This document shows, one piece after another, positions 32,282 to 34,417 of a DNA stretch of 64,000 nucleotides. The notes under the pieces are model-generated. The model was not told the DNA's origin. It searched no databases and saw only the letters and a list, made by a program, of their open reading frames with translations. This DNA comes from Haloimpatiens lingqiaonensis (lineage in GTDB: Bacteria > Bacillota > Clostridia > Clostridiales > Clostridiaceae). The position numbers and the translations under genes were made by a program. The first letter of the stretch is position 1. Every line of letters starts with the position of its first letter. The stretch is from the NCBI RefSeq assembly GCF_901447495.1, contig NZ_CABDWS010000004.1:1-64000 (forward strand). The letters run 5' to 3'.

Positions 32282-33028
32282 ATGAATGAAAATGAAATAA
32301 GAGAATTACTTGAAAATGTAAAAAATGGTCATTGTGAAGTAGAAGAGGCATTAGATAATTTAAAGGAACTTCCTTTTAAAGATCTAGGATATGCCAATAT
32401 AGATAACCATAGAGAAATAAGAGTAGGATACCCTGAGGTTATATACTGTGCAGGAAAGACTGTGGAACAGGTAAGGGGTATAGTAGAATTTATGAATACT
32501 AAAAATAACAATATATTAGCTACTCGTGCCACTGAGGAAATGTTTAGGGCAGTGAAGGAAGTTTGCGGTGAGGCTAAATACAATAGCATGGCTAAAATAA
32601 TAACCATAGAAAAAAGAGAAATACCTAAAAAGGATACATACATAGCGGTGGTTACTGCAGGAACTTCAGATATGCCTGTGGCAGAAGAAGCAGCGGTTAC
32701 AGCAGAATTTTTAGGAAATAAAGTAGAAAGAATAATAGATGTGGGTGTAGCCGGTATTCATAGGTTATTTAATAAATTAGAAATAATAAGAGGTGCCAAG
32801 GTTATTATTGTAGCTGCTGGTATGGAAGGTGCCTTAGCTAGTGTGGTTGGAGGACTGGTGGACAAACCTATAATAGCAGTGCCAACTAGTGTAGGATATG
32901 GAGCAAGTTTTAATGGATTAGCAGCTCTTTTATCTATGCTAAATAGTTGTGCCAGTGGAGTTAGTGTTGTAAATATAGACAATGGATTTGGTGCAGGATA
33001 TTTGGCAAGTGTGATAAATAAACTTTAA
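32282..33028 (+). CDS. larB: Pyridinium-3,5-biscarboxylic acid mononucleotide synthase LarB
   Basis: First enzyme of nickel-pincer cofactor synthesis; it carboxylates and hydrolyses nicotinic acid adenine dinucleotide. Seen: 248 residues with a PurE-like C-terminal domain, including VVTAGTSDMPVAEEAAVTAEFLG (~123-145), VGVAGIHRL, VVAAGMEGALASVVGGLVDKPIIAVPTSVGYG and a Gly-rich DNGFGAGYLAS end. An AGGAAGG ribosome site is present. It closes the lar operon. LarA (lactate racemase or another client) is not in the window, so the cofactor must serve a distant enzyme. Confidence 0.93.
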   Translation: MNENEIRELLENVKNGHCEVEEALDNLKELPFKDLGYANIDNHREIRVGYPEVIYCAGKTVEQVRGIVEFMNTKNNNILATRATEEMFRAVKEVCGEAKYNSMAKIITIEKREIPKKDTYIAVVTAGTSDMPVAEEAAVTAEFLGNKVERIIDVGVAGIHRLFNKLEIIRGAKVIIVAAGMEGALASVVGGLVDKPIIAVPTSVGYGASFNGLAALLSMLNSCASGVSVVNIDNGFGAGYLASVINKL

Positions 33029-33034
33029 ATATTG

Positions 33035-33063
33035 TTGACATAAGTATTTTTAAAGGATATAAT
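33035..33063 (+). promoter_or_regulatory. Consensus sigma-A promoter TTGACA-17-TATAAT
   Basis: A perfect -35 (33035-33040) and a perfect -10 (33058-33063) with optimal 17-bp spacing, just after the larB stop. It drives a transcript into the terminator at 33172 and, on read-through, into the aro genes. Confidence 0.85.
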
Positions 33064-33069
33064 TATAAT

Positions 33070-33205
33070 TGGTAAAGATAAAAATTTCTATGAGATATTA
33101 ATATAGGTGTTATTATAGTTACCGTTAAAAGGAGCAAAAGAAACAAAAAAAGCAGGATGATATGTTGGCAGCGCTCACTCCGTATGGGGTGGGCGCTTTT
33201 GATGT
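33070..33205 (+). ncRNA. Candidate ~135-nt sRNA or attenuated aro leader
   Basis: Bounded by the consensus promoter and a strong terminator. I recognise no known riboswitch or T-box in it. It contains a purine-rich stretch (AAAAGGAGCAAAAGAAAC) and a possible 21-codon ORF starting at 33161, encoding MLAALTPYGVGAFDVLYFIII, whose codons overlap the terminator stem. Read-through would enter the chorismate mutase-shikimate dehydrogenase gene 115 bp on. It is either a free small RNA or a transcription attenuator; sequence alone does not decide. Confidence 0.45.
33172..33203 (+). terminator. Strong intrinsic terminator upstream of the aro genes
   Basis: AGCGCTCACTCC, loop GTAT, GGGGTGGGCGCT, then TTTT: a 12-bp GC-rich stem, unusual in this AT-rich window. 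Confidence 0.8.
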
Positions 33206-33319
33206 ACTTTATTTTATAATTATTTAGATAATTGCCTAAATAAGTGATATTATAAATAGAGTTTTTTAGATGGAAATGAATTAAGTTGTAGGATTAATTC
33301 CAAAACAAGGGAGGAAATT

Positions 33320-34417
33320 ATGTACAATATACAAGAATTAAGAGATGAGATAGATAATATAGATAAAGAGATAGCTAAACTTATGGAAAAAAGAATGAAG
33401 ATAGTAAAAAAAATAGCTTTATATAAGAAAAGTAAAGATATGCCCTTTTTAGATACTAAAAGAGAGAAAGAAGTTATAAATAAAAATTTAGATTATGTTA
33501 ATAATAAGGAGTTTTCTCCATATATTGCGGGAATATTTGAAAGGATAATGGATGAAAGTAAAAAATATCAGCATTGTTTTATTAAATATAAAAGTCTATA
33601 TGGACTTTTAGGAGAAAAATTAGTACATAGCTTATCACCAGAGATACATGAACATATATTTAAGGAAAAATCCATAAATGGATATTACGAAATTTTAGAA
33701 TTAAAAAAAGAAGAAATTAAAGAAGTCTTAAATGAATTGGATAAATTAAGGTTTAAAGGAATTAATGTTACAATTCCCTACAAAGTAGATATTATGCAGT
33801 ATGTGGACGAAATAAGTAAAGAAGCCAGAGAAATAGGGGCAGTAAATACTGTAAAGTTTTGTAATGGGAAATCCATAGGGTATAATACAGATTATTTTGG
33901 ATTTAAAAAGGTTTTGAAAAAATGGTCTATAGATGTAGAAGGTAAAAATGCTGTGATTTTGGGCAGTGGTGGAGCTGCCTCTATGGTTTATTATTGCTTG
34001 TTAAAAGAAGGGGTGTATAATATAACTATTGTAACTAGAAATAGAGAGGCAGTGAATAAAAAAGGGACTTTCCCAAGGGCTAATATAGTAGAATATAAAA
34101 ATTTAAACCAATTAAAAGATGAATTAAGGGATGAATATATTATAGTAAACACTACTCCTTGCGGTATGTATCCAAACATAGAGGAATCTCCAGTACCTAG
34201 AGAATTTTTAAGTAATTTTAAATGGGCAGTGGATCTTATATATAACCCCAAGGAGACCGTATTTCTAAAGTATGCCAGAGAAGAAGGAATAAAATATGTA
34301 AATGGGCTATACATGCTAGCAGCCCAAGCTGTGGCAGCAGAGGAAATATGGAATGAAATAAAGATAGAAGAAGGATTAATTGATGAAATATATGAGGTTT
34401 TAAAAGAGAAATTATAG
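33320..34417 (+). CDS. Chorismate mutase-shikimate dehydrogenase fusion
   Basis: Bifunctional aromatic amino acid pathway enzyme. Seen: residues ~1-88 form an AroQ-type helical chorismate mutase (QELRDEIDNIDKEIAKLMEKRMKIVKKIALYK, quoted as the first helix). Residues ~90-365 form AroE: substrate motif SLSP at 104-107, NVTIPYK with catalytic K155, NTDYFG with D191, the Rossmann GSGGAA at 215-220, and the C-terminal GLYMLAAQAVAAEEIW. Chorismate mutase fused to other Aro enzymes is known, but fusion to AroE is uncommon. GGGAGG precedes the ATG. It heads a run of aro genes; the other pathway steps are absent from the window. Confidence 0.92.
   Translation: MYNIQELRDEIDNIDKEIAKLMEKRMKIVKKIALYKKSKDMPFLDTKREKEVINKNLDYVNNKEFSPYIAGIFERIMDESKKYQHCFIKYKSLYGLLGEKLVHSLSPEIHEHIFKEKSINGYYEILELKKEEIKEVLNELDKLRFKGINVTIPYKVDIMQYVDEISKEAREIGAVNTVKFCNGKSIGYNTDYFGFKKVLKKWSIDVEGKNAVILGSGGAASMVYYCLLKEGVYNITIVTRNREAVNKKGTFPRANIVEYKNLNQLKDELRDEYIIVNTTPCGMYPNIEESPVPREFLSNFKWAVDLIYNPKETVFLKYAREEGIKYVNGLYMLAAQAVAAEEIWNEIKIEEGLIDEIYEVLKEKL

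Follow-up and report, generated by a model that had tools for sequence, protein, structure and literature searches.

A predicted small RNA of Haloimpatiens, probably derived from a T-box leader, is complementary to the 5' leader of the RNase Y gene

The window analysed here is a 64-kb stretch of DNA from Haloimpatiens lingqiaonensis, whose genome (W or G000) was compared with those of two congeners (G001 and G002). Upstream of the lar genes the window contains map, and the larB open reading frame (ORF), including its stop codon, ends at 33028. The gene 3' of the element described here, at 33320, encodes a fusion of chorismate mutase and shikimate dehydrogenase (CM-aroE). The space between larB and this gene holds the following features:

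33035..33063, + strand: sigma-A type promoter, perfect TTGACA-17-TATAAT, read from the sequence and in the same place in all three congeneric genomes
33070..33203, + strand: predicted small RNA of ~134 nt, its start placed from the promoter and its end from the terminator
33071..33123, + strand: imperfect 5' hairpin in the predicted fold, where a T-box has Stems I/II
33102..33112, + strand: conserved block TATAGGTGTTA, reading AATAGGTGTTA in both congeners; its complementarity to the rny start region AATGCCTATA is not significant alone
33122..33139, + strand: conserved core CCGT(T/C)AAAAGGAGCAAAA, complementary to the rny 5' leader and overlapping the 3' strand of T-box stem III
33150..33168, + strand: T-box remnant AAGCAGGATGATATGTTGG, with UGAU instead of the UGGN of true T-boxes in all three species
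33170..33200, + strand: intrinsic terminator, a 12-bp stem and a short T run, with compensatory changes at two pairs in G002

The promoter begins 7 nt past the last base of the larB stop codon, with TTGACA at 33035-33040, a spacer of 17 nt and TATAAT at 33058-33063. It is the only perfect TTGACA-17-TATAAT site in the whole window, for which shuffled sequences give a mean of 0.02 (n=100). Genome-wide, G000 contains 30 perfect sites versus 4 for a reversed control pattern, and the two congeners contain 43 versus 3 and 32 versus 3. Five of the 30 perfect promoters of G000 directly precede T-box leaders (contigs C5, C67, C79, C99 and C110), and the one on C99 stands before a T-box of the aspartate--tRNA(Asn) ligase type. 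The terminator hairpin at 33170-33197 consists of the 12-bp stem and a 4-nt loop and is followed by the short T run. The perfect consensus promoter and 12-bp terminator of the original prediction are thus borne out, at 33035-33063 and 33170-33197, and would delimit an RNA of ~134 nt with a fold z of -2.9. The accompanying suggestion of an abundant small RNA holds up as far as the small RNA is concerned: at sequence level the element has a consensus promoter and a terminator of its own, is short and non-coding, and is kept across the genus. In the predicted fold of this RNA, 15 of the 17 pairs of the 5' hairpin at 33071..33123 can form in all three species, without compensatory changes, and the hairpin is absent from the single-sequence fold of the G002 RNA. 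The core is largely unpaired in the predicted W RNA and about half paired in the predicted G002 RNA.

The element occurs in all three genomes of the genus examined, each time with a perfect promoter, and a covariance model built from these same three copies (R1) matches all three genomes. Because promoter, core and terminator recur in three of three genomes, their combination evidently reflects more than chance. With gaps excluded, the element is 96% identical between W and G001 and 74% identical between W and G002. Four-fold sites of map agree at 61% (57/94) in the first pair and at 33% (26/79) in the second, where 32% would be expected at random. The retention of 74% identity between W and G002, whose four-fold sites are saturated, indicates that the element is under constraint, in a sample of three species of which two are close. 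The conserved blocks are TAGGTGTTA, CCGTnAAAAGGAGCAA and AAGCAGGATGATA; one block of 13 nt is invariant, and one of 16 nt has a single variable position.

The map neighbourhood in other genera contains no element in the eight outgroup loci searched. A DNA search of the family gives matches in 69 of 206 genomes; among those listed outside the genus, nearly all are short and fall on the A+T-rich promoter and the 5' portion, and no locus retrieved through this search from outside the genus carries the core motifs at their proper positions. A pattern scan of a genome collection returns 20 stretches, of which only one is the element (the copy of G001) and the rest look like chance; the window's own genome and G002 are not among these matches. 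Viral contigs yield one stretch, without an R1 match.

R1, which was made from the three elements only, was also run on the 206 genomes of the family, and at E<=0.05 it matches 14 genomes: the three of the genus, with 11 matches outside it. The search of relatives that had been proposed with a covariance model thus recovers the element in three of three genomes of the genus, and outside it leads in seven of 11 cases to T-boxes. Six of the seven are T-boxes above the Rfam cut-off (eight of the 11 matches were given to Rfam), and the seventh, L050, contains T-box sequence with a score not above this cut-off. All seven precede ORFs that resemble Asp/AsnRS by translation, and the three genes tested (L044, L048 and, from the genus, L063) are all aspartate--tRNA(Asn) ligases. 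Among the remaining matches, L042, L043 and L045 resemble ordinary terminators or the ends of coding sequences, and L051 was counted as a miss.

The element resembles T-boxes (RF00230) of the aspartate--tRNA(Asn) ligase type in the 3' strand of stem III, CCGTTAAAAGGA, in the AGGATG-TA segment, in a terminator with a CTCACTCC arm and in the consensus promoter. These three sequence motifs stand in register in a joint alignment of element and T-boxes, and the likeness is one of the 3' half, comprising the stem III region, the T box and the terminator. A model of ten T-boxes of this type from which the element was left out (R2) finds the element in 74 kb with E values of 1.1e-7 (G002), 3e-6 (G001) and 5e-4 (W); seven of the ten T-boxes were chosen through their R1 match and three by likeness, so that R2 is biased and not independent of R1. 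The terminator contributes part of the R2 score: in G001 and G002 its opposite strand reaches 16.5-20.7 bits. With the terminator removed, the three elements take the top three places in an nhmmer search, but at E values of 1.7-2.3. For each species, none of 200 dinucleotide-shuffled sequences attains the corresponding profile score (z 3.7, 5.9 and 5.7), in a test that used the same biased T-box set as R2. On these sequence comparisons we regard common descent of the element and the T-boxes as likely.

In all three genomes of the genus, a second T-box antiterminator/terminator that has no Stem I of its own follows the T-box leader before the aspartate--tRNA(Asn) ligase-like gene (G000:C99:6433-6767, L061 and L118; G001:C9:253249-253583; G002:C1:1266212-1266565). 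Another T-box leader lies just past the window, at G000 contig C4:66494-66804 (97.6 bits). Passages of a T-box review (PMC7583486) and of a database paper (PMC7778990) speak of T-boxes in tandem and of a Stem I that is short or truncated; a stem-I-less small RNA is not mentioned in those passages.

Several parts of a T-box are missing or changed in the element. Stem I with its specifier loop is absent, just ~52 nt lying between the predicted start and CCGT. A search of 401 bases with the Rfam model RF00230 leaves the element unreported at E<=10; in the same genome the model gives 22 matches at E<=0.1. The T-box bulge reads UGAU in all three elements versus UGGY in all ten of the T-boxes compared. 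A T-box-like antiterminator with a 7-nt bulge can be folded in G002 (-5.2 kcal/mol), and its fold is changed in W and G001. The terminator exceeds the antiterminator segment in stability by 16.7-20.4 kcal/mol, as against 8.0-14.7 kcal/mol in the ten T-boxes. Unlike T-boxes of the aspartate--tRNA(Asn) ligase type, the element also stands alone, with no synthetase gene behind it; the next gene is CM-aroE, of the aromatic pathway, in W and G001 and a membrane-protein gene in G002. Because Stem I is missing, RF00230 is silent, the bulge is UGAU and the balance between antiterminator and terminator has changed, the element, although a likely T-box descendant, appears to fall outside the T-box riboswitch family. 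To judge by these features it is no longer a tRNA sensor of known kind. At the gathering cut-off, an Rfam scan of the window reports nothing but a TwoAYGGAY RNA elsewhere (RF01731; 38715-38869, - strand, 67.5 bits, above the gathering score), and the best match of a permissive Rfam scan around the element is the terminator-like Ref55, at 23 bits versus a cut-off of 43.

In all three species, the 5' leader of rny, the gene of RNase Y, contains a complement of the invariant core CGTYAAAAGGAGCAAAA. With G-U pairs allowed, the longest complementary runs measure 18 nt in W and in G001, each with one G-U pair, and 19 nt in the third species, G002, where all pairs are Watson-Crick; with Watson-Crick pairs only, the run shortens to 13 nt in W and G001. 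Among the matches listed at <=1 mismatch, the complement of the core is found only in the element itself and at one further site per genome, C36:4511-4526 in G000 and C9:932808-932823 in G001. Both sites are rny 5' leaders, in antisense register to the small RNA, and the rny copy of G000 belongs to TIGR03319 (RNase Y). The sequence TTTTGCTCCTTTTGACG is present in the rny leaders of all three congeners and ends 29 nt before the ATG in each of them.

The rny leaders were read at 26 loci, namely those of the three congeners and 23 from other genera. In the 400 nt upstream of the gene at these 23 loci, the best match to the site has 5 to 8 mismatches, and the longest complementary runs that these leaders form with the element, of 7 to 17 nt, fall elsewhere in it. 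A scan of the family for the rny site at <=2 mismatches gives matches in 135 of 206 genomes; these matches are known by genome only, so the absence of the site from other genera rests on the 23 leaders. The predicted duplexes of the elements with their own rny leaders have energies of -42.7, -41.3 and -53.7 kcal/mol, values that none of 200 mononucleotide shuffles per element reaches (minima -38.2, -36.7 and -46.1). With the 23 leaders from other genera, the elements form duplexes of at best -35.7, -36.1 and -39.5. The sequence AAAAGGAG is Shine-Dalgarno-like and can match leader segments that resemble an anti-Shine-Dalgarno sequence.

The anatomy of the element, its constraint, its kinship with T-boxes, the loss of the tRNA-sensing parts and the complementarity to rny in three of three species lead us to favour, with a probability of about 0.7, a stand-alone, T-box-derived antisense RNA that would act in trans to control RNase Y synthesis. 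Such an RNA would be transcribed from the consensus promoter, would have arisen from the 3' half of an aspartate--tRNA(Asn) ligase-type T-box leader, and would base-pair through its core with the leader of the rny mRNA in the cell. The pairing would then set the synthesis of RNase Y. A further step, which we put forward tentatively and at somewhat less than even odds, is that the T-box half has become an antisense RNA dedicated to RNase Y and that, being of a kind that RNase Y may degrade, it reports on and adjusts the level of the enzyme, the core and the loop of the rny leader having been kept complementary in the genus.

The complementarity to rny might instead be coincidental, in which case the T-box-derived small RNA would act on other mRNAs or on a protein; we consider this unlikely. 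Watson-Crick runs of 13-14 nt to any part of the element do occur by chance in the 64-kb window (two sites of 13 nt and one of 14), so the case for rny rests on the runs of 18-19 nt, their conservation and their location. Two blocks, the core and the invariant block AAGCAGGATGATA, were tried as target seeds. For the latter (complement TATCATCCTGCTT, <=1 mismatch) no target is evidently common to the three genomes, which leaves the RNA partly unexplained. Chance perfect matches to the core pattern, however, should number only ~0.004-0.008 per genome, by a hand estimate from the counts at two and three mismatches. Total matches at <=3 mismatches are not above the reversed control in G000 (62 versus 75) and are somewhat above it in G001 (102 versus 73) and G002 (79 versus 56). 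In three of three species the complementary site also falls within a 5' leader, is correctly oriented and keeps the same distance, despite saturated four-fold sites.

That the element acts in cis as a leader or attenuator for the aro genes behind it, as the original prediction had envisaged for the shikimate genes, is improbable. In the window the terminator does lie ~119 nt before the aroE start, and G001 has the same order of larB, element and aroE. In G001, however, the distance between terminator and aroE start is 328 nt, and the two spacers have no clear similarity. In G002 the element comes directly after map and before the gene of an ABC2-type membrane protein (Pfam ABC2_membrane_3, 30.4 bits, just below the cut-off of 31.6), with no aro genes; we take this protein to be YhgE-like. 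Conservation upstream of aro genes therefore extends to W and G001 and not to G002. Since map adjoins the element in G002 and lies upstream of the lar genes in W, the element tracks the map region, not the aro genes. The antiterminator, altered in W and G001, likewise speaks against attenuation. The membrane-protein gene after the element in G002 (L120) is an ORF of just 111 codons, which may reflect a real lesion or an assembly error.

Attenuation by a leader peptide had been considered because of a possible 21-codon ORF overlapping the terminator. This ORF is present at 33162-33227 (terminator 33170-33197) and is itself overlapped by a 20-codon ORF at 33157-33219. In G001 it is cut short at 7 codons, and in G002 it has no ATG. 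The ORF at 33157 has an ATG in all three species and varies in length (20, 11 and 25 codons) and in sequence, the G002 version being little similar. With no conserved short ORF, we reject leader-peptide control, as we do the aro attenuator and a simple relic on the evidence given for each.

That the element is a decaying T-box relic without function is very improbable: Stem I is lost, UGGN is changed and no aminoacyl-tRNA synthetase gene follows, yet a perfect promoter is kept in three of three genomes, 74% identity persists where neutral sites are saturated, and the 13-nt block is invariant beside a 16-nt block with one variable position. A specifier-less tRNA sensor that reads acceptor ends through the remaining T-box bulge is scarcely credible, for although G002 can fold the T-box-like antiterminator, the bulge is UGAU and not UGGN in all three species, the fold is altered in W and G001, and the terminator outweighs the antiterminator by more than in any of the ten T-boxes.

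If the element acts as an antisense RNA on rny, the structure of the rny leader may indicate how. In the predicted fold, the leader forms a hairpin in which a CACCUU farther upstream pairs with the Shine-Dalgarno sequence. The helix has six pairs that are possible in 14 of 14 aligned family leaders, without compensatory change, in an alignment that was cut at the CACCTT-like strand and that leaves out two of the 16 family leaders (L213 and L229), which makes it a biased test. The sequestering hairpin (CACCTT...GGAGGTG) is seen in leaders L204-L212, L214-L216, L219 and L222 and may represent a general form of cis control of RNase Y in Clostridiaceae. The target site of the core forms the apical loop and inner stem of the hairpin and is partly paired in the free leader. 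In silico, the Shine-Dalgarno sequence has a probability of being unpaired of 0.01-0.02 in the free leader and of 0.00-0.02 with the target occupied, so that it is not freed; with both the target and the CACCU strand occupied, the probability is 0.22-0.28. In joint folds, by our reading, AUAGGUGUU pairs over the rny start codon in G001 and G002 and not in W. This second contact over the start codon is not significant, being equalled in 276 of 2000 shuffles for W and in 926 of 2000 for G002.

Pairing of the element with the rny leader might therefore work in either direction. Repression would follow from a duplex near the start codon, with a possible second contact over the AUG, and we lean slightly towards it for this reason. 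Activation is conceivable because the free leader already hides its Shine-Dalgarno sequence, and pairing may remodel the leader. A homeostatic circuit in which RNase Y degrades the RNA that controls RNase Y would fit activation better, although this is speculation. The rny gene of G002 (G002:C1, L206) has its frame broken after codon 42 at an A run, by a real lesion or an assembly error.

Trans-encoded base-pairing sRNAs have their own promoter, an intrinsic terminator and a conserved seed complementary to a 5' leader. The element resembles them in its promoter, terminator and conserved leader-complementary seed. It would differ from the usual case in that its predicted pairing is long and contiguous (18-19 nt) and that it would be directed at the gene of a major decay-initiating RNase. 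SreA and SreB of Listeria are described in passages of PMC8079631 as SAM riboswitches that act in trans on the prfA mRNA. The element is like them a riboswitch-type RNA with a (predicted) pairing to a distant 5' UTR; unlike SreA, which is still a working cis riboswitch, it has lost its sensor, is T-box-derived and would have rny as its target.

RNase Y is presented in the abstract of PMC11321564 as a major endoribonuclease of most Firmicutes. In B. subtilis, according to passages of PMC10303841, it keeps its own synthesis in check by cleaving the rny mRNA; the main text of that paper uses neither the term sRNA nor the term small RNA. The control proposed here would likewise act on rny through its mRNA, including a 5' leader with the ribosome-binding site in secondary structure, whereas in B. 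subtilis it is RNase Y itself that cuts the rny mRNA. RNA polymerase bound to the rny mRNA of B. subtilis is reported in part of PMC11077062. In the titles and abstract beginnings of the open-licence literature, neither a T-box-derived stand-alone RNA nor an sRNA against rny appears. If our reading is correct, an antisense RNA to the rny mRNA would constitute a new layer in the control of RNA turnover. It would also represent a riboswitch without a ligand that has turned into a trans regulator, and both its probable source, aspartate--tRNA(Asn) ligase-type T-boxes, and its new target, the rny mRNA, can be identified.

Past the terminator, a stretch of ~35 nt (window 33209-33242) has an 89% match at G000:C51:9629-9663.
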